Program-made: the position numbers and the translations under genes | Notes under the pieces: generated by a model | Seen by the model: the letters and a program-made list of their open reading frames with translations, nothing else | Told to the model about the DNA's origin: nothing | The model's database searches: none | Assembly: GCA_008508345.1 (NCBI GenBank) | Contig: QNGE01000144.1 | Coordinates: 1-64,000 of the forward strand | Source: Paragonimus westermani | Lineage: Eukaryota; Platyhelminthes; Trematoda; Plagiorchiida; Troglotrematidae | Direction: 5' to 3' | DNA: 64,000 bases | In this document: positions 2,346-62,841 of the stretch, piece after piece | Layout of the letters: each line of letters begins with the position of its first letter | Numbering within the stretch: the stretch's first letter is position 1

Positions 2346-4554
2346 TTGTGCATGACGCGAAAACTTAACTCACGATTTAGATACTCGCTCTTTGCTGTTC
2401 ATCAATCTATTGATCACGTGGTAGTGAAATAGACGGATGCATTCAACTTATGTTCATCTCTGTAGATAAACAAGTTGCTGTGAGAAGAGGCTGTTCAGAA
2501 AGAAAACGTTCTGTATTTTGTGATCACACATGGTTAACTCACTAATTTCAACCATCGACAGAAAATCTTCTAGTGCGGGACGTTTGGTCCTATGAATTAA
2601 GCAAACAGAAGTCATCACTTAACAATTGATGTATCCATAACAAGCTACTGTTCTGGATTAACAGCGAAATATCCACCTCTGTCACATCACAAGTTTTGTA
2701 CAAACATTCGGGGAAGCGCAGTGTGAGCCACTTATCAGTTACAAACTGATAACTAGGTACTTGTTTCCGAATTGTTAGAAACGCAAAAAAGTTACTCCAT
2801 ACATTTTCATTTAGGTTAACAGGCGATACTTGGTAACCACAGTAGTCATTGTGCATGGTTGTGCACACATACATAACCATCAGGTATAAGGCATGCGGTC
2901 GAAATTCAAGATGGTTAGTGTACTGAGATACGTACGCTCCAGCATGCCGGGGATTTGACCATTAAATAACATACACTGATATTGTGGGGTTGGACACCGT
3001 TTCTGTTGTTGCAGCCGCTACTCTAGTGATCATCCTTGCCATGTTCTTCAGTTTTTGATTGTCACTTCAATCCTCCAATTCATGTTAAGTGATCTATGGA
3101 AATTCACCTCCGAATTTCAAAACAGCCAAGCTTCCAATTGTGATTAGATCGTAGGAAGTATTACGCTGGAGAACTATCTAGTTGTTTTTATCCCTTCCAA
3201 GTTCAGTAAATAGGCGAAATCTTTAAATTAACGTCTGCACACCATTCATGTGTAAATGTCAACATTTGTCCGTATTCTATTTCGTACACAATTTTACTGG
3301 GGCAATCAAAAATATTTCGGTTAATTTGGCGTTCGGACGTAAAATAGACAATCAGGTCGAACCCTTTGAGTTTTACCGATCATTCCTGCAAGAAGGGATT
3401 ATGTTAATTTGTTGTTGTTGTTGTTAGCTCTTTGTGATGTCTATGTTACAAAATTTGACTGTCTGAACAAAAGTGTGTGTTCTATCCGGTTATTTGTCTG
3501 AGCATCGTGTGGAGTATACCGGACGGCAAGTTGCTAAAACTTTCAATCTGCAATTTATCATTATTTTCAAAGATACTGCCTAAAACAAACTTTGTTTCGG
3601 TGTTTTTCCCAGTAATGCTAATTACAACTAGACAAACAAATAAGGTAGTTTTGGACTAAGTTAACGCTTTATAACAACGTACGATTCTTTGCGTAAATAA
3701 TGCGTGAAGTGCAAGTTTAGATGAGCTTGAAGCAAACTTTAGTCAGCAAATCAATGTGAAAAGGATGACACTTTGGAAGAATTGGCGGATTTAGACTCGG
3801 GCTCTACATTGGGAGCATATCTACACAGAAAACTTCGGAAAGAGGGAAAACCTAAAGACAGTCGCACTGTACGATGCTTTTACAAATAAATCATTGAAGA
3901 GAACACATCACCTCGGACGGAGGTAGTCAACAATTACTAGGATCGGATTGGTTTGTCATATTTTTTCAGGCGAGAAAACAGTTCAAAAAACGGTCTCAAT
4001 AAAGAGTTGCGTAAAGAAAAAGGTTTGCGAATATCTTTCGATGGAGTGTTACAAAATTACATCAGTCATTCCATAGTGTTCCTGAAGCTGCGCTCATTGC
4101 GGATTTTACTCACCTGACTAGCTCATAAACGTTGAGTTCCCAAAGCTAATATCAACCGACTTGGCCTTAGCGTTTAGCAGGAAACTGTATTAGTTCCATC
4201 GTGATTCCAACAAGTTGCTCTGGGTGTGTATAGTTACTTACACATTACAATATATTGTTATCTCCGGATGCAGTAAAACTATACAGGAGAATTTTAGAAC
4301 CAATCCTCTCATGATATTTTACAGTACCCACAAACACAGGAAAACAAACTAAACAGTGGATTCTTTAAATACTTGTGCCTTTCCATTTGACCTTTTCTAT
4401 GATAACGAGTGAACTTAGGTCACTGCCGATTTGTGTAAACCGATCTGAATCACTGATAAACCGCACAGAATTATCATCCGATCAAGAACTTTATAGTATC
4501 TAAACTTTGTTTACAAGCGAACGTCGTTGAGTGTTTCCGTATGAAAATCAACTC
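2346..4554. other. No recognisable feature apart from a short (GTT)n run
   Basis: The only structured element seen is a (GTT)5 microsatellite at 3411-3425. No gene or repeat was recognised. Confidence 0.5.
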
Positions 4555-4730
4555 AAACCATTTGCGTAGCAGTGAGCATGGTTAATTTGGGAATAAACGG
4601 CTGAGCTCCAGTTCAGGACTTGACAAGGATATATGCTACTGAAAACTTCTATCTAGGGTGAACCTCAAGTCTAGAGTTTCTTTCCAAAAGTGGCTTATTC
4701 GCAAGCCTACGGGAATGCACTACTTGTCAG
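4555..4730 (+). mobile_element. Family A SINE (tRNA-like head plus hammerhead), copy 1
   Basis: Degenerate copy. The tRNA-like head (about 4560-4624) aligns with the 62-kb copy through GCAGTG, GGTT, GGAAT and the block ending TTGACAAGG. It is followed by a hammerhead-like segment and then a body (about 4684-4730) related to the bodies of the other copies. Such elements are non-autonomous. They would be transcribed by RNA polymerase III from the internal tRNA-like promoter and moved by another element's reverse transcriptase. This is the most diverged of the four copies. Confidence 0.55.
4625..4683 (+). ncRNA. Degenerate hammerhead ribozyme relic (family A copy 1)
   Basis: Stem I distal strand AAGGA (4625-4629) pairs with TCTTT (4679-4683) with one G-U wobble. 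The core reads CTGAAAA (4639-4645) instead of CTGANGA. The second core segment is GAACC (4660-4664) instead of GAAAC. The cleavage triplet GTC survives at 4669-4671 after a TCAA loop. Stem II no longer pairs cleanly. It is almost certainly inactive. Confidence 0.45.
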
Positions 4731-5324
4731 CAACGTTTAGTATATGCACTTAGAACAAGTTGGAAATAGCCGTAAACGAAGCATATGCAACCTGTCCCAG
4801 TCACAAGTGTTATTGGTAGAATTGGTGTTACATAACGCAAGGGGTTACTCGCCCCATCTTCCGATCCCACCGTCTCAGTATTTATACTAAAAAATGGGGA
4901 ATCAGTTGTAGTGTGTTGAGTTAAGAGAGTTACGAAAGAATATAACAATTTAAGAGAGCTAATTGTAAAACGCTAAACATCGAATGGACTGCAATCGGCT
5001 GCAACAAAAACACGTTCTATCAAATGAGCTGTAGACGCAGAATCGTTTTCCAGCCGTCACAGCGCTTTAAGTGTAAATGCTTGATGTTCCTCCAGTTTGA
5101 TTATATACAGCTCAAAACACGAAGTCTAGGCATTAAGTCGCTTCTCATCAAAAACCATTCACGTTGCATGTCAGGTATGAAATGAGTGCTTAAACGTGAC
5201 GTTAACAGGTTCTAAAATTATTTGGCCGGGTAGTTTGTCCATTACATCGTCTAGTGAATTCCATACTGCATGGTAGTGATGGATAGTTTTGTTCCAATAT
5301 GAAACTTCTGAGCTTACTGTGTAT
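4731..5324. other. No recognisable feature
   Basis: A 73-codon open frame on the minus strand (4727-4948) has no recognisable motif and is within chance length. Confidence 0.45.
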
Positions 5325-27284: not shown

Positions 27285-27480
27285 AGTGTTAGGCTTGCTA
27301 TTGTGAATAGTACGCTAATCTCAGGAGCACGAGGATTTGAGAGCAAACTCAGATCCGAACAAGGATATGCACTATTGATGAGGGTGAAACTCCGGTCCAG
27401 TGCTTCCTTTCGAGGTGGGCCAGTCGAAAGGCTTATTTGAATTCGATGGATGTGTTCAAGTATGGACGGTGTTCAGTTTG
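27285..27480 (+). mobile_element. Family A SINE (tRNA-like head plus hammerhead), copy 2
   Basis: A degraded tRNA-like head (box B region ACTCAGATCCG near 27348-27358) leads into the hammerhead segment at 27361. An ~80-base body follows that aligns clearly with the 62-kb copy: TTTCGAGGTGGGCCAG, GAAAGGCTTATTTGAAT and ATGGACGGTGTTCAGTTTG. The body match outside the ribozyme shows that the unit, not just the ribozyme, is repeated. Confidence 0.7.
27361..27409 (+). ncRNA. Hammerhead ribozyme relic (family A copy 2), stem II deleted
   Basis: Stem I pairs AAGGA (27361-27365) with TCCTT (27405-27409), and CACTA (27370-27374) with CAGTG (27398-27402) with one mismatch. The core is TTGATGA (27375-27381); the conserved first C is T. 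Stem II has collapsed to four bases (27382-27385). GAAAC (27386-27390), a two-pair stem III closed by TCCG, and the GTC cleavage triplet (27395-27397) are intact. Inactive as it stands. Confidence 0.65.
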
Positions 27481-29120
27481 AATACGTATCTCTAGTCAAA
27501 CGGTAACTTATGCCTTCTGGATTGAGCTTACTGAAAAACTGCCTAGAAAGAGTGATGGCCTCACATAAACAGCTGTATTTTGTCGCGGTATGCAATTCAC
27601 TTTAGATCACCGTTTCACTGCCTGATCGATTTTGTTGACAGGGCGCTGAGAACGCTTAGGTCTCACACGATCAGATCTAAAGGGCAGGGCGACTGAAAAA
27701 GTGCATAGTATTAGCTTGTCGCTCAAGTACCGGGCTCCAAAGAGAACGACAACTGAGCATAGTGGTTCACAGTTAAATGTCAACATCTCAAAACATTATC
27801 TAGTGTCGATTTTTTCTGCATGTCAAACGCTGTTGATGATCAAACAACTGAATGAAGATTCAGCTTTCCACATTTTAAACTGATATAATATTGTGAACAT
27901 GCGCCTACCTGTCTGCATCTCTAACTTCATTCGTGTTATCAAAGAAAACGGCAGTAAATGACAAGATCACTGAAGACTTACATTCCTCAAGAACGGCTGA
28001 CGAACTGGAATTGGGTTCATATACTCTGCTGAGTTTTGGTTTGCACAAGATGGTGTATACCCCTGGGCTAAAGAACATGCGTGTTGTGCCATTAACTTGG
28101 TGTATCATTAGCAGATAGGTTTCTGTTCATATTCTTCGTTGGTTTCACCAGCTACATACTGATCAGTCTTTCCGTATATAATAATCGGCGTTCTCTGATT
28201 GCCGTTTCATTCCGGAACATATGTTTCCTACATTTGTTAAGTATATATTAAGTTGAGCAAAAACATGACCAGTTTAATGCTCACCAGGTTACTAGCAAAA
28301 CAGGGTTTGTTTTTTAACGCATAGTTGGTCGCAACGTGATAAGAGAACTTGGCCGATATGATATTTCCCGCGTTTGTTTCACTGAGATACTATTAAACTC
28401 CGGATGCTTCAGCCGCGTAGTTCACCGTAAGTTAAATCTAATCATTCGCGCGTATAAGTAATTAGCACTTGGTACTTAACACTAAGTAACCAATTCAATC
28501 TGTTCAATTTGTCGTTAACCGTTTTCATTTTAAGAATCAAATTATCAATTTCCTTCGTTTTTTGCTTGACGTCCATTATTTTCTTCGGTTGTTCGGAAAA
28601 TCTGGTGATTTTTTGCAGGGATATCCTGGTCATTTCAGTCTACCAGGACAGACCTGAGACCAAGAGCAAATCGCTACTCAATTCTACCAGTGTGGTATCG
28701 TTTAGAGCGTCCTATTTCCTTCGTCCAAGCTAATTTCCCAGATTAATCATTTCAACAATCGGTAGTTTATCCAATACTTACAAGTGTGATTATTGTTTTT
28801 ACTCCCAACCTAAAAACAGTACGTCAGTTTCATTCATTCAACATTTCATTCAAAAACAATCTTCGTTACATCGTTACACCGTTATATCCATTAGCACATT
28901 CGTCAACAGTATCTTCCTACCTACAAAAAAATCTCACCAAAACGAATGATTGTTATTAGGAAGCAACTCGAAGGATTTCGCTTATGTGCCTTCCTCAACT
29001 CAGAAGTAGTGATGTGAAGAATAATTGTTGTCAGTATTTCTTTCTCAAGCTCAAGCAGTTATGGGTTTTGTCCAAACGACTCATGAGACAAAACGCAGAC
29101 CAAAATGACTCTTAGTGAGT
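27481..29120. other. No recognisable feature
   Basis: A 63-codon lysine-rich minus-strand frame (28442-28633) looks coiled-coil-like but is short and unsupported. Confidence 0.4.
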
Positions 29121-31034: not shown

Positions 31035-31640
31035 ACGAACACCATAAACACATTGTAACAACACTCACACAAACGTACGTATTTATTGACCTGAGAGACG
31101 AAGCCAGCATAGCGATTATGAACTCCCAGCACCCGTGATACCTCAAGTGTCCACCGATCAAACCACATTGTAAAACACTCAGACGATCGAGCAGTGATCA
31201 CAGAGTTGAGCATCCGTTCCAATGTGAACAGCTCCCAACTTTGAAACAGTTCTGTCGACCGGGCGATCTGTCTGTTTAATCAATCCGTTTCAGTCAGTGA
31301 CCTCTTAAACACTCATTCTTATTTGGTTGGAGAAGGTGCGCTAATGGATGGCGCGGGGTAGTGTGGAGTATTTCATGGACAACAATTAGGTTCTCCCCTG
31401 AGACATGTGTGATTCATTGAGAATTGACTTAATTCTGTCGGTCTTTCTGGGAAAATGTTTTTCACAGCTCCATAGATTTTTTGACTGTCCTTCTCTGAAC
31501 GTTCCTGGCAAGTGTCCAACCCTCCTGGGGTAAGGATGGCAAGTTTTATGTCCACTTTCAAATGTAAGTTGATGTTGGATGCAAACATATTGGTAAACAC
31601 TTCAGGGTGATAGGTTTTACAATTTTCCTCAACGGTTTCA
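31035..31640 (-). repeat. Dispersed repeat family C, copy 1
   Basis: About 600 bases align with 43585-44180 in the same orientation at high identity. The shared blocks include GCGATTATGAACTCCCAGCA, TCGACCGGGCGATCTGTCTG and AAGTGTCCAACCCTCCTGGGG. Homology fades at both ends without terminal repeats or a tail. A minus-strand reading frame crosses the copy. Confidence 0.85.
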
Positions 31641-31738
31641 GAGGCATTACCGTAGTTCAGATTCATTTCCATCATTGAAACAAAGATGAAGTAGTTGATG
31701 GTTTTCACAAGCCGGTTCATTATAGAACCCACAGACAA
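31373..31738 (-). CDS. Family C open frame, copy 1, unknown product
   Basis: A 121-codon frame. Its last ~75 residues match the frame of the second copy, with shared segments TPGGLDTCQERSEKD, KIYG.VK, ERPTEL and RGEPNCCP. Relative to copy 2 it carries a 12-base insertion (around 31530-31545) that adds four residues and keeps the frame. This suggests, but does not prove, past coding constraint. The N-terminal third is not shared, so the start shown is probably not the ancestral one. No known domain, signal peptide or membrane segment is recognised. It may be the C-terminus of a transposon protein, a duplicated host exon, or non-coding sequence that happens to be open. The stop lies inside the repeat and ~340 bases of conserved downstream sequence follow. 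Confidence 0.35.
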   Translation of the reverse strand: MSVGSIMNRLVKTINYFIFVSMMEMNLNYGNASETVEENCKTYHPEVFTNMFASNINLHLKVDIKLAILTPGGLDTCQERSEKDSQKIYGAVKNIFPERPTELSQFSMNHTCLRGEPNCCP

Positions 31739-34700
31739 TGCCTGTTCTCAGTCCGGTAAGGTGTTTTCCATCTTATCAACTATGGTTTTTATGGTGTTCA
31801 CACATTTTCTTATTAGGGGAATTGAGCTCCCCTGCTGACTTGATGTCTGCGTAGTTTATATCGTACTAGATCTTATTCGAAATCAACGTCGATTTTGTCT
31901 GATTGCTTATTCGCGATACCCTCTGATTTCGATTCTCTCAGAAAGTTTGTGCTTACATCATCAGAAATCCAATTTTTTAGAAAAGCTTGTGTGCCCAACT
32001 GTGTATGATTAAAAATTGAGCCGATTCCGTCTTGTAAAATCGTTAGCTGGCAGATAGAAAACATAACGCGGGCAGATCAAGCATATAATTAAGTTTTGTT
32101 CACCTGCGTCTCCCTGAGTGACACTAAGTTTACAAAGAGTGCTGGAAAAGGTGCCGGACGACTGTTATGATGTGTAATCAGCTTTCAATTCACGCCAGTT
32201 TCACTAGCATGATCTAAACCGGTCTATCAGCCCGAATTCACTGATTACAGCATTTGTACTACGGCTCAGTTTTTGAATCTTCATTGAAACAATATTTGGA
32301 GTATAACTTTGGAATTCCACCTCTTTGCTTCTTGTAACAAAGTTCGTCATCAACTTACTAACGAAGGTGTACAGTGTCCGGATGGACTTGACATTCAATA
32401 GCACATTCTTTGGACATAAGAAATTAGGCCACTAAGTATTTTTTCCAGTTTCTGGATTGAACGCGTGAATGTTCATCAACGAAAATCAAAAATGTTCAGT
32501 CTGAACTCCCTTAAAATTTTGTTGTGTAAGACTACCGCATATATATGTGTATATATCTACCACACAGAAAATGACCCGAAAAAATTGTAAAAATCTTTAT
32601 TGAAACTTTACAGCCGCGTTCGTTGCGGGTACGGATATTCAATGTAGCAAATTAATTTCTGTCCCGTGTAAATTTGTACGAACTCGTAAGTTCTGTCTGG
32701 TTTCCCAATCGGATTAATCTGGTGTTTAAAATTTTGTTCACAACCGTCAGAAAAATTTCATCGATTGACTTTCGGCGCGTACATAGAATAAGACCTTGTA
32801 AAATCTTTATATACATATAATCAACGGACGTGATTAAAATTCTCAGTTGGAAAAGAGGATCATTACTGGGAAAGGATTTGATGTCTAAATTAAGATTTCT
32901 TGATTCATTATTAATGAAAACCCGAATCGATCAGTTAAACAGACTGAGCTCAAGTTATTGAAATTATCCTAGTAACACTACGTTGGCGCTAACAATCAGG
33001 TTGACATGTTGAATATGGCAATTATTTTGATTTCATAAATGATTGTTTGGAAACGTTGGGGCCCGCAAAATTTGGTGAACTAATAAAGGGTCGTAACATA
33101 GCCCACAAAATTGTTTCACGTTCGCGGATATCACGGTAATTTTTTGATGCCCACTATCTGCTGAAATGAAAATTAGGAATAACTGGTTGGTTGGAAAGCC
33201 AAAGTGACTTCAGATAGGAGTGTTTGTCAGCGTCAAGCTCAAACTACGTGTCACGCAAATCTCATTGTTTGCTGTATATTTTTCACTATTCTGATAATGT
33301 TTGTACCTTTGATAAGTTAAAATCATATGATAAGTTGGGCGGTGACCATAGCGATGCTATGTCCTACAAGTTAATGACAGCAAGTAAGCTAAGGTCTGTA
33401 CGAGATTCATTTTAAAATGTTGCATTCATATATATTGGTTTGGAGAGGTATTTACCAAGAGTTCTTTGTTCTCGCTGTCAAAGTAAATCTACCAGTTTGA
33501 AATGTTGACATAGTTAGAGTCAAAGACAAAACACAACACCGAAATATTTGACTTCTTGCAGCCAACCAACATTTATCGGAAGTCCTCATCGTATCTTGTC
33601 TCATGCTGCATGAAGTTAGGACTGCAACCAACGCGTAATTTAGGTAACGCACTTCAAAATTCACTAAACGCGTCGACTAGACCAGAAAATGTCTACTACC
33701 TACTCGGTGACTTCTGTACGGAGTCCATTAGTGCCGTTTGTCGATGGGCCACACTCTCATTCATTATTTCTCTTGAAGCCACGCGCGCCTCTTCCTGACT
33801 GTCCGAACTGAACTGAGAGGTCTGTCGGTAAAAAATGAAGAGGCGTATGCAGTTGTGTTAAAGTTTAAACGGTATTACTGATTAGTTTACACAGTCGGTA
33901 TCATACGCATATGCTTCTACAATATAAAGCGCCAGTTTTCGTCCACTTGTCGATTAGCATCATATCAAGTCACCTACTGATATGCATCTGGTGCAATGAG
34001 ATCAGAGACTGAGGTCAGACAGCCAAGTATATACTAAGCTTGCATATTCTCAGTAATGAGCCTCGAACAGAATTTTCACTCCGGTTCACAAGACTTTTAC
34101 TCAAAATCGTTTGTACCTGAACATTTGACCGTAGCTTGGTGATCGTGTTTACTGACGTGACACGCACGTGAAAACAAGTTATTTATCAACCAGATATACA
34201 CATGAGATGGTGATAAACTGCAAACAGCGGGGAAAACTGGAGTTATGTGTTTTGTACGTAAATGGGCTGTAGCTTTGTGTATGTTTGAGTGTTAGTGTTG
34301 CGTACCTGACAAAATCACCCCTTTTACGATTTGCCTCTCGCATACACTCAGGTTTCATGAGTAACTCATCTCAGTACAAAAGGTTGCTACAAATGTAACC
34401 ATCTTTGAACTGCATTTCTTCTGCCCAAATCTAAAGCCGTTAAGCTAGTCGACTTTGCGGGGATTTCATCAGTTCGGTTTAGAGTAGTAACCTCCGAATT
34501 CTTCCAGATAATCAGCACACTTACACGGTCATCACCCATAGCAGACAGTAAACCGCAGGTGAATGATTCAACACATTTTCGCACATATATTACTAATTCA
34601 GAATACTTTTTAAACCTTAATGTGATGAACCCTGATGTATCCCTTTGCAATCCCTCCGTCATTCATGCTGCTATGAGCGCCGATTTGGGTCCTCACCCGA

Positions 34701-38452: not shown

Positions 38453-40829
38453 AATCAAAGCAATACAGATTATAAGTACCATATGTTAACCCGCAACAAG
38501 CTGTTGTGTGTAGAGACAAACAGTATACATATCTTAAAATTATCACAATGGCTGAAACAGAACAAATTTAATTCACCCATGATGACCTTCAAACTTGTGT
38601 GATATTGAGTGTTTTCTTACTTTTAGTTGTTTACTAGGAGAAATGTCATCGAGTTATCGAGAGTAAAAGAAAGACTTATATGTGCGCTAAGCAAAATTTT
38701 GACCACTTTTAATTAGAACATCGTGTAAGCTTGAGTCAACGGAAAGTACTTGATAATCCTAAAGAAGCAATCGATAGGTCATGCACATTTTGATGAATTA
38801 GTTGACAAGCAATTCGTGTTGCAAGACCGGTAACAAAAGTCTTTGATAGAAACAAGATTTTTCCAGAGCCGCACAAAAAGAACAGTTTACTTTTGATGAT
38901 CATCATTACATTCTATTCAGTAGTTTACTCACTTGTGATGTAATTTCAGCCAACAACCACGCATACCGAAAGGCAGATATGCTTCTCCTAAAAAACCCTT
39001 ACGTTTACTCCGAAACAGTGTGTCTGTAGAATTACATGCTTTTGAAAAACAGGTTTATTTCCTACTTGGATGTGGAGCCCATCTAGATCAAAGCTTATGA
39101 CCAGAGTGCAGGTACATCACCCACAGATCTAGTTTTACTTATAAGCACCTTGTACTTCTCAGTTCGATTATCTGATGTGGCCTTTGTGAAAGTTTCAAGT
39201 CAGTTACAATGATCAACCTGTAAGTATTATGTGTTTTCTGTAGATATGTTAACGGACCATGAGGTGACTGAAAACCTCTTTATGAGGGTTCACACACGAA
39301 AATTATAACCGATCAATTTTTTGTTGCTCGACAAGATAAACATAACTAAGAAGAAAATTGTAATTCATGTACTTTTAGCTTGGGAAGTTTGGTTTATTTC
39401 CTAAAATTTATCTGAACAACTTCTGATTTCTAGCGTAAAGAGAAAGCCCTAAATAATTAAAATGTTGTCAGCTATAGTACCAATGACGCTTACAGCAAAA
39501 ATTGGAATGCACCAAATTTCGATCATTCATGCATAGGTCCTACTTCACGTTGGAGCTTGAAAGTGATCTGGCACAATGTTCCCTACAATTAGATGACATT
39601 TAGTTAACTCACAAATATTACTTATAGTTGGCCTGTAAGATACCAGCGATTCTGAAGAAATGTGTGTTTCAATCATTACAAACCATTTCTTTTAGTGGTA
39701 TTCCGAAGCAACAAAAACTCAACTAATCAAACAAAAGAATGCCTGAGTAACATGTTGCATTTTTTTCGATGAAATCCACATACTTTCAAGAACAATACAA
39801 AAAGACCGAATTGTGGCGCCAGTTGTTTATCGTACAAAATTTAGCTACAGCACCAGCAGATATCTTGAGCGAAAGGCGATCAAGTAAAAGTTTGTTTTAT
39901 TGCTGATGTTCATTGCCAAGCTTGTATTTTGAGCAAAAAATATTCTCACAAAATACAAACAGAGATCAAAAGTGAAGAAAATGATCAATTTTCAGTTCAC
40001 CGCTAGTTGAATCCCTGATTACTCAGTTTATACATAAAAATAAAACGGTGAGAGCAAAGTCACGATCGAGGAAGAGCTGAGTGGGCTTACCTTATCTAGT
40101 AACTAAACCTACCATATGGACAGACGTGACAGAAGGTAAGGATGTGATGACGTGCACAACTTCACCTATAAACGATAAGTTGCGTATATCTCAAACCACT
40201 TATGCCTTCAAATAATGGAGCAGTACACATAGGTACCATCAAAAGTTTAACAAAAACCAAAGCGTGGACAAACAACTACCTAATCACAGTTTTTTAAGAC
40301 CCCTACGGTCTCAATGCGTAAATTCACTCTGTGTTGCCTACAAAGCCGCAGGAATGTTATTCACTCAAACTGCCAAGTAGTGAGATCGTGTACACTCAAT
40401 TGAATGATAAAGCTCTATGTTGTTGGTCTGATTAGTTTTGGTTCCAATTTTCTGACAAAAGTGTTCCCAGCACATTTTTGTCCCTGCTGAAAACGTAGTA
40501 CCCATACGTTTGACGCATATAGGCATATATCTGTATGCACATAAAATATACAGAGTGACTTATGACAGACCCGCCATCTGGAGAGACCGTCGTTGCCTAG
40601 AACTTGAGGGAAAATGAAAATTATTTCTCAAACCGTTCTTCAAAGTCTGCATCAGTTCGACGCCAACCCTGTCCAGATGTGTAGCAGTGTTCTCCAAGGC
40701 GATTCTATCTCGCAAATTTTATCACTTAGGCAACATTAGACGGCTTGCTCGATAATTGTGTAGACGATCCTTTCTACTAACTTACACCAACACCTCGTTA
40801 ACTGTGAGTTGTTACATTCGCTCATATAT
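38453..40829. other. No recognisable feature
   Basis: Continues a stretch (about 36.4-41.0 kb) without a single open frame of 60 codons on either strand. Confidence 0.5.
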
Positions 40830-41000
40830 AAAAGTGAGGGCAATGGCGCATCGTGCCACACGGTTTCTTCAAGAAAGCGCAGCCGCAGTTATAGCCCAGG
40901 CTGTGACAAAAATATGCACTACTGACGAGCCCTAATACACATGAAAATCGATCGTTTTTTTCGAAAGTGTCCAACTGAAATTGCAATCAACTGTAAGTGA
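40830..41000 (+). mobile_element. Family A SINE (tRNA-like head plus hammerhead), copy 3
   Basis: The head (about 40835-40907) aligns with the 62-kb copy: AAAGTGAGGGCAATGG, GTGCCACACGGTT and CCAGGCTGTGACA. The hammerhead segment and a short body (TTTCGAAAGTGTCC onward) follow. A TATATAAAAG string at 40825-40834 precedes the head; it may be coincidental, because these elements use an internal promoter. Confidence 0.65.
40908..40961 (+). ncRNA. Hammerhead ribozyme relic (family A copy 3), core intact, cleavage site lost
   Basis: The first core segment is perfect (CTGACGA, 40922-40928) and GAA is present at 40943-40945. Stem II no longer pairs and the GTC cleavage triplet is scrambled after the TCGA loop. 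Distal stem I is A-run against T-run (40908-40912 with the T-run ending at 40961), so pairing is kept although every base differs from the 62-kb copy's mixed stem. Confidence 0.6.
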
Positions 41001-43584
41001 TGTTTAATTCATTCTGTCGAATTATCCTTATAATATATAAGTATGTGGTTCATTAATTTATTTGGCTCAGTCCGTAATCCTGACAAATAAATCACAGGTA
41101 ATCTCATCATAAAATTTGAGTGCACGCAACTTCGGATTTCCCTGCTGTCTGTTAATCGGCAGGTCATGGCTACCTTGGGGATGAAACACAATAACGGACG
41201 CACTGTACCATTGACAACATGAAGTTTACTGAGGTTGACAGGAGAGTCTTCTTGTCTTTCGTAAAGCATCTTGGCTTGCAAATAAACAGCAGTAACCTAA
41301 AGTTCAAAAGCACTGACCCATCAGTTTGGTTTTGACGAGATATGTTCTGAACAACCGGAATAAATATTTGAAATATTCTCATGCCGGTAAGTTCCACAAA
41401 AAAAACCAGTCGACGAATCCAATGCAACCCAACAGTCACAACCAAAATAAACAGATGGACTACGGTTTTCGAATCGAGTGTCCTTACAAACCAACAAGTT
41501 ATTTTATCCGTAACGAAGGAATGTGCAGAAAAGCTGTTTGTTAGCTGTCAAACAAACATAAGCATCCTGAAAACAACGTGATGATTGAAAGATAAACGGA
41601 AACCTAATCAAATTGAGCATATTCACGACAGATCTTTTAATATAAAATGTGATTAGCTTCATATCACTTAATTTACTGACTGAGTGATTTTTGTCGAAAG
41701 TGGTCATCGCTGTGAACAAAATGCATTCAATCGTTTGCCCCCCGGAATTAACCAAGTTTTGACACTCCGATCAAATGCACTTTGCGGTAAGACCAGAGTA
41801 TTTCTCACGGAAGAATCCGTTTCAGTTGCCTAACATGCCTTCACACATTTGCACTTTCTAAGGTTTCATTAAATGCTTGATTCAATACACAGCTTTATCT
41901 CCCCCTATCGTTAAAACGTTCTCTGCATACACGTATTGTATCCAAAACCAACTATACCAACATTTCACTTTGAAGCTAACTCACTTACACAGTACCCTGA
42001 GATGAATAGTGTTAGCCTGTCAAGTCAAACCATCTTTGTTTGCAACCAGTCTATCCATCTTTCCTACTTATCACCTCCGAGTTATCAATTGACCACCTTC
42101 AGTCATATTTGCGCATCGTCAAAAGCATCAGTTTGCTTTTACGGTTCCAAAGCGACTTCTCTTGCACTCTATCAGTCATACATATCAGTCCGATACTCCA
42201 GTCAGTAGTATACAATATTTTTGTGATGAGTGTGAAATACAACAGCTTACAGTTCAACTGTTTAAACCGGTTATTCATTCAAATGTGAACAAACTATGAC
42301 ATCCACAGCCTTATTTCAGAAATGAAGTGATATCTACTCGCACATTTCAAGGTTTTGGTCAGTGGTTTATAGAAATCATTCAGTTGCCATCACCCGCTCA
42401 CTCTGTGTAATTAGACTCAGTGAGTAGAATACGTACACAGATAGTAAACGTGTCATTCGATCATAAACGAATTGAGAAAAACAAAAGTGCTTAAATTTAC
42501 TAAGAAATGAATTCGATTCGGTTATGGAGAAAAGGTTCATATGTCAACCGAAATCATTTTGACTAAAAGCTACTCTAAACGTTCTTCCCATTCTCAGGAA
42601 AGTTCGTTCATATTTCAGCAAGATCGCTTGTCTGGTTTTAGTGCCTAAGGTGATGAGAAACAAGATTGTTTGCTTTATACTCACTCATACAGAAACCCAG
42701 ACATATAAGTCGGTTTTATCTAAAAACAGGAATGTTAGTAAATACTTGTGCCTAGCCACACAAAAAAAGGAGAATTAAAGAAACAGAACAAATCGGAGGT
42801 GGGAAAAGATTGATCATTAGTCCCGGTTAGCTAACCATTGTAAGGTTATAACGTACTCTCGCTGGCAACTTAAGCTTTTCACAAGTACGCGACTGAAGGT
42901 ATTTTTTGAGGGGATTTATAGATATATTTTTGGAGCTGATACAGCAAGCTCATACTTATCTGACTGAATACTCCGTGCGAATATGCATAATATGGCCTCC
43001 GTCCAGTCCGTTCTGACTAGTTATTGTCAGGATAAGGTGCGCATGTCTCAACCGATTAAACTCAGATGCATTTTTGGCGGACAAACCGGGACAAAACACC
43101 TGAACTGCGTGACATTTCGAACCATCTTTTGTAAGCAGATTTTCTTAAACGATCACTAATACAAAGCACTAGTAACGCTTCTGTAATCTGAGTCAGGTAA
43201 ATGAACATAATTGTCTGAAGTTCGTTTTTTGCAGCCTGAATGAAGTTCCCGGGTTTGAGTAGCATGAGAGCAACCACTGCCAGACAGTTCCCTGAAGCTG
43301 TTTGTCGAAATAGTAGAGGTTTCATAGCCGCATTCTCATTAGGATGAAAGATAAACTGATCAACCTGGCAACACTGAACCGAATTTTTACCAAAGCGGAA
43401 TGGTAAGGGTCGCGTTCAGAATAATGGCTTAATTGTAGGAATCTTTGGCTACATGTACGTGGGAGCACGAACAGGTAAACGTGAGAGACAAGATTCTTAC
43501 ATTTAACTTAAAATCATGCTAACGGAAACACAACTTAAACACGCATGGACCAAAGGCTAGAATCGAAACATTTAACATTTCGAT
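41001..43584. other. No recognisable feature
   Basis: Overlapping frames at 41009-41755 and 41936-42288 lie on conflicting strands and frames and show no motif. Confidence 0.4.
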
Positions 43585-44180
43585 AACGAACACTGAAACA
43601 CACGGAAGCAACATTCAATCAGACATGCGCATTTATTGACCTACAAAACGCAGCCAACATAGCGATTATGAACTCCCAGCACCCGTGATATATAAAGTGT
43701 GCACCGATCAAACAACATATTAAAAAACTCAGACGATCAAGCAGTGATCACACAGTTGCGCATCCGTTCCAATGTGAACACCTCCAAACTTTGAAACAGT
43801 TCTGTCGACCGGGCGATCTGTCTGGTTGATCAATCCGCTTCAGTCAGTGACCTCTTAAACACATCCCTATTTGGTTGGAGAAGGTGCGCTAATGGATGAC
43901 GCGGGGTAGTGTGGTGTATTTCATGGACAACAATTAGGTTCTCCCCTGAGACTTGTGTGATTCATTGAGAATTGACCTAATTCTGTCGGTCTTTCTAGGC
44001 ACATGATTTTCACAGTTCCATAGATTTTCCGGCTGTCCTTCTCTGAACGTTCCTGGCAAGTGTCCAACCCTCCTGGGGTGAGGATGTCCGTTTTCAGATG
44101 TCGGCTGATGTTGGAGGCGGACAGATAAGTAAGCATTCTAGGGCGGTAGGTTTCACAAATTCCTCTTCGAAGGTTCAGAA
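43585..44180 (-). repeat. Dispersed repeat family C, copy 2
   Basis: Direct copy of 31035-31640. It differs by scattered substitutions and small indels, including a 12-base deletion within the minus-strand frame. Confidence 0.85.
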
Positions 44181-44247
44181 ATTTCAGTTTGTACAGGGAC
44201 TCATTCTGTCTGCCAATATGGCTCCTAGGTCTCGTTCTTTCACTCAC
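43921..44247 (-). CDS. Family C open frame, copy 2, unknown product
   Basis: A 108-codon frame with the same C-terminal text as the copy at 31.4 kb (TPGGLDTCQERSEKD, KIYGTVK, ERPTEL, RGEPNCCP) and the same stop. Upstream residues (SHIGRQNESLYKLKF, GICETYRP) diverge more from the other copy. No recognised domain. Two copies staying open through the same frame despite indels is the only support for coding. The first codons lie beyond the shared repeat, so the true start is unknown. Confidence 0.35.
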   Translation of the reverse strand: MSERTRPRSHIGRQNESLYKLKFLNLRRGICETYRPRMLTYLSASNISRHLKTDILTPGGLDTCQERSEKDSRKIYGTVKIMCLERPTELGQFSMNHTSLRGEPNCCP

Positions 44248-45464
44248 AAGAGCAGCTTTTTGTCACCAAGGTAATTGTTCGTACAATTCCGATGGCGAAC
44301 GCGGGTGAATTTACACTTGTTGACAATGAATCACAAGTTTGTCTGTACTATTTGTACAGTTTGAATCGTTCTGTCATATTGCCCAAGACAGACCACTCTG
44401 GGGATAATTCTGTCGACAGATTTATGCAAACGTCACAAGCAGTGAACTGAAGCATGACGCGTGAATATCTCTCAAGAAAGTCATGTTGCTCTTTGTTGAC
44501 GATATGGAGGTTCTGAACTTTAGTCCACAAAGTCACTTGATAAGGTTTCCATTAATTTGGAGTCTGCTGAAAAAAAACTATTGGTCGACAGCTTGCTGGA
44601 ACATTTTTCCGTTCACCTTTGAAGGCAGATGCGGTTGAGAAACGCCTTCAGGCTCCTGCAAGACGGCTAGTTAACAAGAGACGGTTGAAAAGAATTGGAA
44701 TTGGTTCTAATGACTTTGGGGTTCGGCATTTCAAGACGGCATAGAGTAACGAATCAGAATTGAGCGCTTTGCACTTTGGTGAATCTAACTTAAGAAGGAA
44801 GAGCCAGAAAGTTAACCACGAACCAAAAAGCGGTGACCGAGTGTCAAAAACCAAGGGATAACTAGTTGTTATCAACACATATTCGAATGAGTTGCAATCT
44901 ACATGTAGAGAGGAATTTATTTTCTCAACAGTAAATGATTTATGTGTACTTCCTCTCCGGACTATCAAAATCACTGAGTGGCTCTTTCTAACTTTTGCAC
45001 GTTAAGAACTATAAATAATTTCCTCCGTCATTCTGAAGTTCAAGTGAGCTGAATTTCCTATAATGCAATAACCATAGTTATCTTTCAGTGAAAGCCGTGT
45101 GCACAATTTTGAAAGCACAATCTTTTATTGGTCAGACAAGTCAAATAACATTTTCATAGGTAGTTTTCCTTATCAGCAGTTAGCGTCCTGATAGCAGTAG
45201 GTTCATGATACCCACAATATGGTCTGTAAAGAATTCTGAGTTTTCACTCACTCTCTCATGTCAAGTGTTGGAAAAGAAATAAATCAGTCAAATTAAACGA
45301 CCAGTTGAGTTTTCTTAATCAGTATATGTAAATGAATTGGAAACGTTACACAATAATCTGTCGAAAATTAAGACCTGCTGTATTACTAATGAGTAGTTTG
45401 ACAGTTTTGATAATGTACATGTGACGCGACTGTGAAAAGTCATGGCTTCACTTAGTTTCGAACC
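44248..45464. other. No recognisable feature
   Basis: A 108-codon minus-strand frame (44648-44974) has no motif and no partner copy; not assigned. Confidence 0.4.
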
Positions 45465-45680: not shown

Positions 45681-48600
45681 AGTTGGTATGAAGGGAAATT
45701 TCACACATCCACAGCTTGATCCATGGGTGTGAGTGACGCAGTCCATAGATTTTTAATGCGCATATTTTCGCAAATCACGAACTGCCGTTTTTTCACAACT
45801 GAACTAGTTTTAGCAACCCACTGATATGTGATATGCATGTTGGTAGACTGGTAAATTTTCCAAAAGACCAACATCAATAAAGCATGCTTAAACGTTTGAC
45901 ATCTTAATCTTATGTGGGCAGAAGGTAGCTTTTATAAGCAAACCGGGAAATTGTTCCTGCAACTGCGAGCACGGAACACAGTGCATGTTGTAAGTGCAAG
46001 TCTTCTAAGTCTTTTCTTGCTCAAGGTTCTTACAAAGCTGTCAAAGAACTAAACATCACTTGAGTAAACAATAGGTTCAATGAAATGTGCTAATTGTGTA
46101 AACTGATAATTGCACCCAGAGCGAGTGACTTGTTATGAATGCTTTCTAGTTAAAATATTGATACAGTACACTATTCAGCCATAACTTTTAAAGCGCTCTC
46201 AAGAAGAGGCCTTTGTTTGAGCCAAATCGTGCACAGATTGATGAGGTTTGGAATAATACAATCAAGTTCCTCTTGTTTGCTGGGTATATGTGAACGTTTT
46301 CGAACTGCAGCTCGACTACCCAAGTCTTCTTCTGTGCCTCCCTCGCCATAAAGCTTCTAAAAACGTGGACTCATCCGTGCACTGTTCGTTTGTATTCACT
46401 GTTCAGTTTGCTCAGCCGTTTCACGGAATTGCTTCTCTCCTAATCCCGCAATCAAAACGCTATTTCAAGTTTATACTACGACTTACTAAGGGGAGCTTGT
46501 GTAAATTCGTCGGATATGTTGTGTAACGCAAATTGTCCTTCACATTTTTGAGCGCAGTCATACTCAGGTGAACTTCGGATTGAACACAACTTACTTGATC
46601 GCAAGCTTCAACTTGAAATTAACCAAACCTCCGACTACTCGTCAGTTATTTAAGTGAGCATTTTCAGTCGATACGTTCTGAAACCGAAAGTTGGACTCAA
46701 ACATTTTGTGCGCTGGAGCTGCCCAGTCGGTCAAATAAAATTTCACTGAGGTGAAACGAAAAAAGTTGCTTGCAGAAGATTAAACATTTAGGTTCAGTAA
46801 ATCTTTCAGACAGAACTTGAACAAAAATCGATTAACCTGTCATTTCATATGGCGAGGATCACAGATGAAACAAGTCCAACAGCGCAAAACCGTTTTATTT
46901 ACAGTAAGCACTGTGGATACATAAGCAGAGTACGAATTTAGAAGACATGCGAAACGTGGTATAGTGTTAGGGTTATGTTGATAGAGGTACCGTTTTTAAA
47001 ATCGTCAGCGTCCCCAAATGCTGCATTGTAGTAATCAGGATTGCAAACAAGACAAGTCCCGGTCGCTATCCAGAAGGAAAACTAACCATAGTGCACTTCT
47101 ACAATCGGGAGTATTTATGTTAACTTCAACAGAACTAGCAACTTTACGTGCACAGCACCAAGTTTCTGTGCTCCACCTGCCCCAGTGACGTTTTGATTAC
47201 TCGTGATTCGCATACTAGAGCACTGGACTTCGTTCGTAACAAGCTGACATCCAAAGCGAAGCCTGCTTCGACCATCACACTTTAGGATTCCGATCACGAA
47301 CTCATCACAGTCAGCCCGTTTAAAGTCAAATAGGATTGAAGTTTCAACTTTTCAGTCAGTGAACAGTCAAGAACATTACATTGGAAAGATGCCCTTGCTA
47401 CCAAGTAGAGCGACAGCATCATGCAATGGTTGATTTCTACCTGTTCAGCGCTCTTTTTGTCATTGTATCACAACGTTCGTCATCCTAGCATAGTCCATGA
47501 AACCTTCCTGTTTCGACCTTCATCTAATCGAAGTTATTCACTTGGCATGTCTTTCCGCTACTGCGAATGAAACGATGGCCGCGTCTCCTAACCCCAGCCA
47601 TGAGGGAGCACGATTGTTTAACATGATGGTATTAGGTGAGGAAAGAACGCTATGATCTACTTAGGCTTATTTGGTCGAAAAGTGTACAGCACCCATCACG
47701 AGTGTCTATCAAGTTTTACACTCGCGGTAACACGTTTTTTTGTGATGTACACTTTGGGCCTTTTAATTCTTAGTCGGCTGCAGGTGTGTAGTTCAGGGAT
47801 ATACTGTGCTTCTTCTCCTCGGCAAACACTACGCAGCTGATGTTGACGTTAATCATTTTACCGCACCCAGAAAGCCATTCCACGAGTGCAGGTTTGTTGT
47901 CTTGAATTCGGGTCTATTTAACTCTAGCCAAAAAACTAGTTGTTGAAAGTCCTTGAACTTCAACAAGCGTTCTGTCAATGGGGGTGTGAACAGCGAGACA
48001 CCTGGGTATTTCATCCAGTATGAGGTGCTTTCATATGCACCTGCTTGGTTGGTTATTTATTTAGCCCGTTGCTGACAATTAACTGTCCGCGATCAGTAGT
48101 AAGATCAGTGACCAAGTTTTCATTTTTCAAGCAACACCAAACTGCGGTGCTGACGGACACAAAGAGGCTGACCGATTTCAGCTGATGAGTGTACGCGAGT
48201 ACATGCTTTTGAACGTAACGATGTTAACTAAATAAGTGCTGTGCGGATAAAAACGGAATACACCACTACCGGTACGTCCAAACAAGGGACGTGCCATATG
48301 ATGGTACGCTAGCGAACACATTCTGTCAGTAGTTTTAAAAAATTAAATTAATGAATCAGCCTTATCCGTTTGACAGAAACAGGAAGAAGACATATCACGA
48401 TATTTTAAGATTCAGATTTTCTCTCATCAACGGCTAACGTAAAACCAACAGCATTTAACAACACCAGTCGAACGAATAAGCACTATAGTTCTGACATTTT
48501 TCGCACTAACAGTGAAATCATTTACCCTTCAAGCAGATTGTCACCAAAGTGCTGTCCGCACGGAATTTGTCGATGTTTTCCGATTAGTTTTGTTTCACTA

Positions 48601-49491: not shown

Positions 49492-51353
49492 GTAAGCAGT
49501 GCGGTAAAATCAAATAGAATCAGTTCGCTATGACTAAGGTTGTAGAACGAGTCACCGCAAAATGTTGTGACTCTGTGGATAGCCAATGTCTTCTTTGATA
49601 AAAACGAATTTAAGGTAAATGTGCATGTCTTAAGCCTAGGCTTCTGTCCATCTTCCTTTTTTGAATGCAACAGCGAAAACTCATGATTTTACCACAAACA
49701 TCCAGCCCAATGTTGTTTGTTATAGTCGATTCAGTATGCGTTGGCCTGATTCCCCATGTTTTTGCGCCCGTATTTTGTCTTCCCGTCAACTGTTGTTTAG
49801 CAGATTGATGCCAAGCATTAAAATTACTTCAAGCTTGCTAGTCGGCAACACTGGTTTAACTCGTTTGGCTTGTTGATATTGAATTTTATGCTATAGAAAT
49901 CAGAATAAACTTCCACGGAATCACTGACTTTATTGAGCATGTCAAACTGAATCTGATGCTGGTAGGTGGCTTCTAATGACAAGAACCGTCAAGCTGTGGC
50001 ACTTCTCATCGTCTGATGTTTGCAGCTTTCGTTTCAGTCAGACATGAACAGGTTTACTGGAGTGGAAGATTTCTGTATGCTTATATATTGTGTTGTAAAA
50101 ATTCTAACCCAGACAAAAAAATATGAACAATGAGAAAAATTATTCACGGGGCATGATTTCCATTTCAGAAAATATAAACATCCATTGCTCAATATTTTTG
50201 AGTGACAGTGTTTAAGTGAATTCGAACGGGTTATGGTTTAGAAATGACAGTGCGGTTGTTGCAAAAAGTAAATCATTGATTCAGTTTCCAGAACGACTCC
50301 TCTCATAAGACATAGGCTGTAGTACAACTCTCGGTGGAAGCGACGATACGCATTAGTGATAACTTTTCAAAAACCTAAAAATTAAGTACAACCGTTCAAA
50401 ATCAGCTGTTTGGAAGTTTGGTTGGGTGCAAGAACCGCTAGCGTCCGCGAACAGCTCTTGGACTGATATCTCGGAAATGCCCAGCTGTATACCGACAATT
50501 CGAAAGGCTTGATCAAACATTTACTGGGGAAATACTCTAGAACAATGGTACCAGTTTTACATATATATATATAAAGGTTTCATGTTACTTCCAAGTAGTA
50601 AGGTCTTTTTGTTCATAAGAGTTGGCAAATTAAACGGAGACTAATACTGAGTCCTCCTTCAAGTGTTCAGCTTGAAGCACATTCATGGATTCCAGCTAAG
50701 TCAATTCCATTGCAACAGCTGCCTAAGCTGAATTAACACGAAGACAACCAACACATATTTTGACGTAAGAGCCGAACGACTCTCATGCGTTCTCATAGTT
50801 CTGTCACTAATTTGAATCGACTAGAAGTCCACATGCTTTACGATCGGGTCAACACAAACCAAAGAGTCATAAGTTTGAAGTAAAAATGTCGAGGCCAATT
50901 ACAACTTTCTAGAGCAAATTTGAATACAACGCAGCAAATGAGCTTACACTAAACTGGTTCGTAGGATACATAATTTCCTCTCCTTCGTGGTTGCCTCGAT
51001 GAATTTGCTAACGAATTTGGGGCAGAAGCGATGAGAGACAGTTATAGCTGCTCGTTTGTATTTAAAAAAACGAACTGCAATAGATTCGTCCATCTTTGTT
51101 ATGGAATTCGCACCGAAAGGGTCATCTACTTCGCATGGACTGATATTTGCAGTCATAAAAAATGTTAACAGCAAGGATAACTTGCCAAAATTTACGTTTT
51201 AATTTTGACAAATACGTCAACAAATCTACTACAAGTAATTCCGACGTGATCCTTTTGAACTCGAAATAGAAAGTGCGTGATTACTGGAGAGTGCTCAATT
51301 GTTCTTTGTAGATAAATTTGAGGTTAGTTTTCCCAACCAGCTGTATAATTTAC
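49492..51353. other. No recognisable feature apart from an (AT)n run
   Basis: An (AT)6 tract lies at 50561-50573. Frames at 49661-49876 and 50944-51174 are unsupported. Confidence 0.4.
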
Positions 51354-59793: not shown

Positions 59794-61917
59794 GTGTCAA
59801 ACTGATACGCACATCATTTTTTGAAGAGTTGCATTTGCTCAGTGCTTTAGGCAAACATTTTCCAGATTGAAGGATAGCACACGCTTCAGAAAAACTCACC
59901 GCGTCTATTTAAATCCAAGTAACATCGACCCAAATCCACGTGCAGTTGAAGAATGAAAGTTCTGTTTTTTGACCAGAGCCGAACTTTGAGTGCGATATTT
60001 TTCATGAATTTAATCACCTCAGGTGACTTTACAAAACGATAATGGGCATTCTGCTTGCTCAACAGCATACGCCCTTATTATGTTGTCACGCCAGCCTATT
60101 GCATTTGCCAGTTGTGCGTAATTTTTGATCGACTGCAATGCGTTCAATAACCAGTGACCTATTTCGATATTTTCAATGTTCCTGAAGGTACGGTTTAGGT
60201 TTTAACAATGCAACCTTCAGTTCATTATGTTTGTTTTGTAGCGCGAATAATCGATCAATTCTTTGTCTTTGTGTCCTTTATTTTCAGCAGGAAATTTATA
60301 ACATTTCCGGGAAATAACACAATGTGCTTCAGTAGAAACGACGTGAACTATTAACTGGAAACGTTTTCGCACTTTCTTCTGTCACTGGTGAAGTTTTCTT
60401 CGGCAAAACATTCCAGTTATTAGAAATATTAGCGAGTTGTCTAAACCATTCAGTCTTAAGTTGGACGGATAATAGTGATTCATAAATCTGTTCATTAATC
60501 ACCATGACTAAACATTTGGCTATGCACATTTTGTAAAGTCCAGCTCGAAAGTGAGAGGAAATTGATTAGCTCAGGATTGCTTCGTCAACCGGAGTTAAGA
60601 TGCCTTTCCAATGGCAGATACGCTTAAATAGGCAGGCGGAACAGGAGGTTAGTTATTCTCTAGGAAGAGACCCTATCGGAGAGTTTATCGGGATGCTAAA
60701 GCTGCGGTCACAAGTGGAACATTTCTGGTTTTTAGTAATCACCATCACTGACAAATTATAAGTTACTAAACAACGTGCAGTAAATATCGTAGGGTCGGTG
60801 AGCTGACCAGGTTAAGAATCTTTTTAGTAAAACACGCAAAACTTCCACGATAGAACTAGCGGCTACTGTTAAAACAATGATTTTTGAGTGAGCCGCTTAA
60901 CTAACGCATGAATTGCAGATTCAGTAGTGCCGAGGTGAGAGTAAACAGACAGAAATGTGTGACAATTGACAGTCTTGTTGATGATGATGATCTTAGTTGT
61001 TGACTTCGCTCGAAAAACTGTAATTGATCGAAGCAAAGTAAACGAAAGTGTCATTGATAATGTTATATAGGGTGATCGGGGAGATGGCTTTCAATGATGG
61101 AATTTCACAACTTCCAAATGTGTTGAAATCTCACCATTTTTTAAAGATCACCTAATATCAAAACAAGAATGCATTTACGGAATCGCCTCTTGTAGAAAAA
61201 AGACAGAATAAGGTTGATCCACCGACTGACCGGATTCGGAGTAACAAGTTTGTTAACATCATAGCAAAACTGAGAAAAGTTTCTTGATTAACCGGCTGGC
61301 AGTTTACAATAAACTTTAGGCTTATTATTCGGGAAAAGCTGTAGACAATATCTGTACCAATGTACTTACAATCGTATCCACCGCGCTCTGTTGGTGGTCT
61401 TTAGATGCAGGTATAAATGATAGGTGGATCTCAAGCGGTTTCTGATTAATAGTTCACTGAGCAGATTATTAGGATAAACTGATAGCAATACTTGATAACT
61501 GATTGAACGACAGTGTCAAATACTCATGCAATCAAGGGTGAAAAATCTGAATAAACAACCACTACATGCATCCGTCAAATCTTTGGAACTTGGTCATGTT
61601 CAGGGTATAAACCATGCGATTAGAATTGACTGAGGGATTGTTTCATCTTTTGCGCAGCAAACGGATTGCTCTGGGATTATTTTATCTACAATGAAAGTTC
61701 CCCACCTTTCTTCTGCGAATAAAAACGGTTACATAGTCAATCGACGGCCCGATCACATAGCAGTTAGAAAATCTCAACCAACGTATGTCCAATTAGGATA
61801 TGACCAACATCTGCTTTCAAGTTACACGGAACTCGAAATAAAAAATATAGTATAATCAGAACGTTGAAAAATAAATTAGTATTTTAGGCACAACGAGTTA
61901 AGACTAAGAGAGTTATA
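59794..61917. other. No recognisable feature
   Basis: Nothing was recognised on either strand. Confidence 0.45.
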
Positions 61918-62130
61918 GTTCTTCAAGTTGAACATCACCCATATTTGATCGCAGCCTTCGCATTCAGATAGACTTTCCAACCAGCCTCTTTCGAAAAGAA
62001 TCACGAGACTCGAGTTTCGCTCTTATTAGAGCTAGTCAGTAGTGCATATTCTTGTCACGGCCGGGATTTGAACTCCGGTCATTCCAATCATTAGGGCAAC
62101 CGTGTTGACCACTGCATCAGTGACTTCACC
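61918..62130 (-). mobile_element. Family A SINE (tRNA-like head plus hammerhead), copy 4, best preserved
   Basis: Read on the minus strand. The tRNA-like head (about 62125-62054) has box A-like CTGATGCAGTGGTCAAC and box B-like GAGTTCAAATCCCG. The hammerhead domain follows (62053-61996), then an ~80-base body shared with the 27-kb copy. The head does not form a clean T-arm or anticodon arm, so it is a derived promoter, not a tRNA gene. The layout parallels the schistosome SM-alpha element: polymerase III head, then self-cleaving RNA. An A- and T-rich stretch lies just upstream of the head. Confidence 0.8.
61996..62053 (-). ncRNA. Hammerhead ribozyme (type I fold), near-intact
   Basis: Minus-strand order: AAGAAT (62053-62048), ATG bulge, CACTA, core CTGACTA (62039-62033), stem II GCTCT-AATA-AGAGC (62032-62019, five perfect pairs), GAA, a two-pair stem III AC-TCGA-GT, cleavage-site C (62007), TCGTG and ATTCTT (62001-61996). 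Distal stem I is six perfect pairs; proximal stem I has four of five. The only core fault is the eighth conserved base, which is T instead of G in CTGANGA; that change is expected to cripple cleavage. A hammerhead in such an element would cut the transcript into unit lengths after the cleavage C. Confidence 0.8.
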
Positions 62131-62175
62131 TTGTGGTGCTCACGATGTTTTTTTCTAAATTTACATCCTTAGTGC

Positions 62176-62505: not shown

Positions 62506-62841
62506 TTGACGCGTACAAACAAAAACGAAATCGGTGTACCAACGAGTTGAGACTAGGAAAATTATATTTCCCACAGCGCTTCTACCCTCTCATTTGGCCT
62601 ATATATCAAACGGATAAACTAGACAACTTGCATTGTGCAAGCTTCATATGTGACAGTAATCAAATGACACGTGCTGGTTTGTTTGAAATGTGATGTGAGT
62701 AGAACTCTGTATTCGAAAACAGCACTTGCTTCAAGGTTTTGTAGTCTACCTGAAATGCATGAACCCGGAATATTACTGCCACGCAACAACCCCAAGTTAC
62801 GTCCTGACCAAATTTTTGTCTCATATTTTCCAGAGTCTTAG

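Follow-up and report, generated by a model that had tools for sequence, protein, structure and literature searches.

A large family of tRNA-headed, hammerhead-bearing elements in Paragonimus westermani and its probable spread as a retrozyme

Near the end of the window (the whole 64,000-nucleotide stretch analysed here, contig C144 of the genome), a type I hammerhead whose core departs from the standard at one base (T for G8) can be drawn directly from the minus strand, and the locus raises the question of what kind of element this motif belongs to and how that element spreads. An earlier note on this DNA had described a near-intact, three-stem hammerhead within a ~210-base, tRNA-headed retroposon of SM-alpha-like architecture. 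Direct reading together with an Rfam match bears out the three stems on the minus strand, and places the core change at 62034 (Table 1). In the window copy, distal stem I is AAGAA/TTCTT with an outer GA/TC, and the proximal part, GCACTA against TCGTGA, has four pairs and two mismatches. The Rfam match is to RF02275 (Hammerhead_HH9), whose gathering score is 52. It scores 25.9 bits, with E 0.037 for 64 kb searched with 4227 families; it is the sole match at E ≤ 1 in the whole window, and reaches E 0.00018 when a stretch of 301 bases is searched. A descriptor allowing at most one core mismatch finds one window site, against 0.15 per dinucleotide-shuffled window, or 0.083 if stem II must have five pairs (60 shuffles). 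The folding energy is ordinary (z −1.31), and by itself the window motif is suggestive only. It rises above chance because it belongs to a family, with three more clear copies in the window and genomic copies that have an intact core.

G8 is a catalytic base of the hammerhead, and for this reason the description of the window copy as near-intact does not hold for its function; the copy is also truncated and decayed, with 88.5% identity to the family consensus. The T in place of G8 and the mispairing of stem I lead us to predict that it is not cleaved, and that it is an inactive fossil. In many copies outside the window copy a G is kept at the G8 place. The stem III region, ACTCGAGT, is self-complementary, so that a stem III of eight pairs could be common to two ribozymes, a putative dimer of the kind reported in excerpts of PMC6155905 for newt and viroid ribozymes.

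Table 1. Features of the window copy, of the family unit and of related loci (window positions unless unit positions or loci are given)
Feature	Position	Strand	Basis or remark
Decayed retroelement copy, unit 195-412 of about 434	61914-62132	-	nhmmer with unit model, E 2.3e-75
tRNA-like head	62054-62124	-	ARAGORN cloverleaf only at relaxed threshold; adjoins hammerhead 5'
A-box-like stretch GCAGTGGTCAAC	62104-62115	-	sequence
B-box-like stretch GTTCAAATCC	62064-62073	-	sequence
Type I hammerhead motif with extended stem I	61992-62057 (Rfam match 61984-62057)	-	RF02275 match and drawn from sequence
Core strand CTGACTA	62033-62039	-	G8 place 62034, here T; sequence reading
Stem II GCTCT-AATA-AGAGC, five pairs, AATA loop	62019-62032	-	sequence reading
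GAAAC-TCGA-GTC: core strand, two-pair stem III and GTC	62007-62018	-	GAAA 62018-62015; TCGA closes stem III; GTC 62009-62007; sequence reading
Predicted cleavage site	between 62007 and 62006	-	placed from sequence; putative activity, window copy predicted uncut
Place of the consensus T4 run (unit 329)	61994-61997	-	possible pol III stop
3' body and start of tail	61914-61995	-	common to other copies
Second copy	4498-4719 (alternatively 4550-4734)	+	unit 132-367; core damaged
Third copy	27350-27492 (alternatively 27295-27483)	+	unit 262-414; stem II deleted
Fourth copy	40816-41007 (alternatively 40832-41012)	+	unit 181-398; CTGACGA kept, GTC region deleted
Tail-only fragment, possible 5'-truncated copy	46608-46646	+	E 0.0034
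Weak, very decayed possible copy	50270-50424	+	E 0.0083
Weak possible body fragment	60649-60717	+	E 0.0072
5' region	unit 1-201		unit model
tRNA-like head	unit 202-272		unit model
Hammerhead	unit 270-333		CTGATGA from 287, GAAA from 308, cleavage after 319 (unit model)
Body and tail	unit to 434		unit model
In-phase tandem loci	L006, C332a, C4808, L071, C2310, L015, C650		
Flanking repeats of 8, 10 and 11 nt	C332b, C917, L003		

The element is larger than the earlier note supposed. Its unit, described by a model of 435 positions, is about 434 nt long rather than ~210 bases, and is ordered as 5' region, tRNA-like head, hammerhead, body and tail; some 200 nt lie upstream of the head, which is not at the 5' end of the unit. 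In the consensus, proximal stem I (GCACTA/TAGTGC) is without mismatch, distal stem I is AAGGA/TTCTT with a TAT bulge between the two, stem II consists of five pairs with AATA as its loop, and TCGA closes a stem III of two pairs. The unit does not code for protein, its longest stop-free frame being 52 codons; its GC content is 0.469, and its consensus contains a single T4 run, at unit 329, which starts 10 nt past the cleavage site and lies within stem I. No tRNA is called for the head at the default ARAGORN threshold in the window, and its Rfam tRNA-like match is weak (E 0.48). The stretches GCAGTGGTCAAC and GTTCAAATCC are presumably the A-box-like and B-box-like parts of an internal pol III promoter.

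Three further clear family copies lie in the window, and the reversed window gives none. The four window copies are old, with pairwise identities of 50–68% (70.5% in the hammerhead, 49.9% in the head and 58.5% in the body), and a covariance model built from them finds only its own seeds above 13.1 bits. The segments at 46608-46646 (+) and 62540-62633 (-) resemble only the unit tail, or sequence near the 3' end of the 61914-62132 copy. Other features of the window include a stop-broken frame at 50-670 (+), which we read as the C-terminal part of an RTE-like reverse transcriptase; its nearest named match is a protein of Paragonimus westermani (82% identity, covering 45% of the query), and it has no Pfam match. 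Another dispersed repeat is seen in the frames at 31373-31747 (-) and 43921-44262 (-), which share the stretch GGLDTCQERSEKDS..GEPNCCP.

In the genome as a whole (823,446,929 bases in 9701 contigs), RF02275 gives 16 matches at E ≤ 1e-3 with 58 of 76,522 first-look candidates scored. The best E is 8.9e-8, and the gathering score is reached by none of the 16 (best 44.9 bits versus 52). No RF02275 match was found in 14 control genomes, a weak null since the 12 that are named are bacteria and archaea. The undamaged 33-nt core, CTGATGAGCTCTAATAAGAGCGAAACTCGAGTC, occurs exactly at 35 places and the reversed pattern at none. All 35 fall within the loci read, and they include likely duplicates: L005 and L006, which share flanks and look like one duplicated event, two of C971, and perhaps the C3395 copies, two of which look related; the L005/L006 and C3395 copies are still counted singly in the totals of 35, 66 and 22 given here and below. 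In 20 chosen sources that contain copies, an Rfam scan gave 25 hammerhead matches at E ≤ 0.05 (25.5–42.2 bits), with at least one in each source and none at the gathering score. Pattern scans of viral and prokaryote contigs returned nothing related, and an 18-base match at L001 was taken as chance, as no hammerhead follows it.

Unselected sampling gives an estimate of the size of the family. In 8 of 20 unselected 10-kb stretches (196,346 read bases), 13 loci were found at E ≤ 1e-3, from which we estimate 54,500 loci in the genome (29,000–93,000, an interval that is too narrow because the loci are clumped). The family is real and large, and its consensus and exact-core copies have what defines a type I hammerhead, i.e., CUGANGA, GAAA, NUH, three stems and an open stem I; the window copy itself departs from the core, with T for G8. 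The 15 copies nearest the consensus are 95–98% identical to it, and from these sequences it is likely that the family had working ribozymes recently. Part of the earlier description stands at this level: the SM-alpha-like architecture of a tRNA-headed retroposon is supported by the head and by the family copies, the consensus carries CTGANGA, GAAA and GTC, contrary to what the note had named as refuting, and the covariance-model search that the note had proposed finds both the locus itself, below the gathering score, and the genomic matches.

Core conservation was measured in 33 copies chosen without reference to an Rfam or exact-core match, and including the window copy picked by the earlier note; they remain from 96 copies after exclusion of 43 picked copies and 20 with poor hammerhead coverage. 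Difference from the consensus is 12.5% at the 12 core positions, 15.0% in the whole hammerhead, 22.2% in the tRNA head and 19.1% in the body and tail. The ratio of core to other difference is 0.62 (bootstrap 0.47–0.80), 60 of 2000 randomly drawn sets of 12 columns match the core in conservation, and all core positions are intact in 8 of the 33 copies. The conservation signal of the core is moderate, and has to be read with the fact that profile searches favour conserved parts. Copies decay after insertion, and the signal must therefore stem from the source elements. In the same 33 copies, 86.0% of cells in the paired columns are standard pairs, compared with 85.7% after shuffling and 33–52% in slid registers, which gives no covariation signal; a covariation test on the four window copies was not significant.

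Tandem units, which the earlier note had suggested looking for, are present at seven loci. At each of these, unit 431–434 is followed by 7–8 nt and then by unit 8–11, so that the repetition is in phase. C4808 holds two hammerheads at a distance of 428 nt, each with a full set of core positions, and contig positions 29848-30275 lie between its predicted cuts; C650 holds two at 432 nt, one of which has a weakened stem II. Complete dimers are rare and no long array was met among the loci read, and the majority of copies fall short of one unit in length. With a unit within 150–450 bp, repeated head to tail and carrying one hammerhead each, the family corresponds in arrangement to non-LTR retrozymes. 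Folded as a circle, unit 8–434 reaches −138.8 kcal/mol versus −120.4 (sd 5.6) for 100 shuffles, none of which is as low (z −3.3), and the C4808 monomer is 65% paired in its fold. Apparent dimers at C971 (L045) and L049 (C1210) were set aside, as repeated flanks and N make assembly gaps or duplications probable, and same-strand neighbours at L007, L038 and L049 are out of phase and were excluded from the seven. The dimers also display an apparent alternation of two core variants, one of which is the search pattern.

The insertion products have a distinctive form. Their 5' ends are spread, and the 3' ends cluster at unit 400–439 (83 of 98 hits), mainly at about 400–419 and at 430–434. These 3' ends are at or near the tail and away from the cleavage site at unit 319, so that simple insertion of linear cleavage monomers does not account for the genomic copies. 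Both strands are present at 22 of 66 insertion loci and one strand only at the other 44; in the unselected sample both occur at 4 of 14 loci (E ≤ 1e-2). Among 23 opposite-strand neighbours, 22 are head-to-head, an arrangement absent from the earlier description, which had the hammerhead and tRNA head right; the single tail-to-tail pair, with copies 317 nt apart, is taken as two insertions. In every head-to-head pair, 12 nt or more of the unit separate the starting points of the two arms, which rules out snap-back palindromes. Of the 22 pairs, 16 have their outward ends at unit 400 or beyond on both arms, and six have one arm that ends inside the unit. Arm identity within inverted pairs is 0.828 versus 0.805 between loci (13 pairs), values so close that one RNA template is not separable from two. 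At locus L014 (1537-1640), head-to-head hammerheads score 46 bits against the model of the Rfam mir-549 hairpin, whose gathering score is 93, and this match is probably a coincidence; the inverted ribozyme there forms a long hairpin with GAUGAGCUC, and head-to-head copies of this type are a possible route to hairpin RNA.

Direct repeats of at least 10 nt flank 2 of 61 loci where 0.1 are expected. The numbers are three versus 1.14 for repeats of at least 8 nt, and six versus 3.78 for at least 7 nt, with none at the remaining 55 loci. All three of the longest repeats surround inverted pairs, which suggests that each pair was inserted as one event. A candidate target-site duplication at L009 was discarded, as homology to the unit model continues upstream. 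Target-site duplications exceed 4 bp where present, as in non-LTR retrozymes, though most loci show none. Together with variable 5' truncation, a fixed 3' end and 5' inversions, they are among the signs of LINE-type, target-primed insertion that are found here. In twin priming, the inverted part ends inside the RNA. The 16 pairs with outward tails resemble target-primed insertion in which both ends are primed, and the other six could be usual twin priming or decayed copies.

We consider it fairly probable (roughly 65%) that the window copy is a truncated and mutated form of the ~434-nt unit, and that the family spreads as a retrozyme through cleaved, likely circular monomers and a LINE reverse transcriptase. 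What the DNA itself contains is the motif, its intact genomic forms, the unit, the seven in-phase loci, truncation, head-to-head pairs and three flanking repeats. RNA polymerase III would transcribe the element from its tRNA-like head, or transcription would reach it as read-through from outside, and the resulting multi-unit RNA would be cut at every hammerhead into monomers of ~430 nt. These could be closed into circles by the cellular tRNA ligase, as excerpts of PMC7229834 propose for such monomers in other animals. A LINE reverse transcriptase would then copy the circles back into the genome by target priming, and a head-to-head pair would consist of two cDNAs, each truncated on its own, that are joined 5' end to 5' end; the 16 of 22 pairs with outward tails look as if both nicked target strands had served as primers. 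In a more specific and tentative version, which is possible though not favoured, the element is a retrozyme with its own tRNA promoter, the LINE enzyme rolls round the RNA circles and inserts from both nicked strands, and head-to-head pairs are its normal product; the odds of this two-ended reading are lowered by the six pairs in which the arms do not both end at the tail.

The alternative that deserves most attention, although we regard it as unlikely, is a plain tRNA-derived, SM-alpha-like SINE, copied from linear pol III or read-through RNA, with a hammerhead that trims ends or is a passenger, and with multi-unit loci arising by read-through from a neighbour. The tRNA-like head with its B-box-like stretch, the mostly dispersed copies shorter than a unit, the 3' ends at the tail rather than at the cleavage site, and a core conserved only moderately more than the rest are all as expected for such an element, for which schistosomes offer a precedent in the excerpted PMC2770079. 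However, the ~200 nt upstream of the head would be absent from an internal-promoter pol III transcript, and the joint between tail and 5' region recurs with the same spacing of 7–8 nt at seven loci, which chance neighbours would not produce. A T4 run tends to stop pol III, and the one just past the cleavage site would be expected to do so here. A terminal repeat of a Penelope-like element (PLE), with the short copies as solo remnants, is improbable. In its favour, PLEs typically have terminal repeats in inverted and tandem arrangement. PLEs with minimal hammerheads are known as well, according to excerpts of PMC7229834, but the hammerhead here differs from the minimal form in its extended stem I and five-pair stem II. 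Furthermore, the genome gives one GIY-YIG match at E ≤ 1e-3 with 150 of 281 candidates scored (C4173:53944-54123, L081), and this has one internal stop.

That the pairs are made at the DNA level, by a fold-back element whose terminal inverted repeats are the two arms, is very improbable. The strong excess of head-to-head neighbours would be natural for such an element, but the arms of each pair start at different unit positions, two thirds of the loci (44 of 66) hold one strand only, and this reading was rejected as the joints differ between the loci read. A chance hammerhead-like sequence, the reading to which the sub-threshold Rfam score of the window copy would lend itself, can practically be dismissed in view of the genome-wide copies, i.e., the RF02275 matches and the exact cores that have no counterpart in the reversed pattern.

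An engineered ribozyme, which we take to be of S. mansoni origin, provides one point of reference for stem I. The element has GCACTA/TAGTGC where the engineered ribozyme oligo in the excerpted PMC11793870 has ATCCAG/CTGGAT, a comparison with that oligo. Excerpts of PMC2770079 describe over 38,000 hammerhead hits in S. mansoni, along with SINEs that derive from tRNA-Gln and resemble SM-alpha. The present family is like SM-alpha and Sj-alpha of Schistosoma in carrying a hammerhead within a dispersed, high-copy, tRNA-related short element of trematodes, and its unit of ~434 nt compares with 335 bp for the SM-alpha-like W36.2 in the excerpts of PMC8490949. The S. mansoni W-elements treated in those excerpts are likewise repeats with hammerheads and a very short stem III, and functional evidence is reported for their hammerheads. 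They differ in being satellite-like and tied to the W chromosome, with some autosomal copies, and in the excerpted text a tRNA head is mentioned only by way of W36.2.

Non-LTR retrozymes, as characterized in excerpts of PMC7229834, have type I hammerheads in tandem repeats of 150–450 bp with low GC and no LTR, show target duplications of more than 4 bp when present, and count platyhelminths among their carriers. The two-pair stem III with a tetraloop is shared with the invertebrate retrozymes in these excerpts, and the GC content of the unit lies above the <45% of the Figure 1 legend and below the <50% of the text there. Unlike non-LTR retrozymes, the family has a tRNA-like head, mostly single or truncated units, and frequent head-to-head pairs. 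RF02275 is the best Rfam match of the family hammerheads in the sources scanned, but every match seen scores below gathering, and there is no ground for an HH9 label. Among the matches listed from the open-licence literature, no such family is reported in Paragonimus or another non-schistosome fluke, and in the main text of the paper on the Paragonimus genome no word starts with ribozyme. To judge by sequence features, this looks like a new family that combines SINE-type and retrozyme-type characters, both types being already known.

Hammerhead retroposons are known from schistosomes, and SM-alpha-like SINEs may prove to be identical with circular-RNA retrozymes or distinct from them. The Paragonimus family, whose hammerheads fall outside the Rfam gathering scores in the sources tested, unites an SM-alpha-type tRNA-like head with the in-phase tandem unit of retrozymes. 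Its intact natural copies could be transcribed for testing, and its fossils are numerous enough for a study of insertion products. If the two-ended reading is true, the family would link SINEs with circular-RNA retrozymes, and would in addition represent a two-ended mode of insertion.
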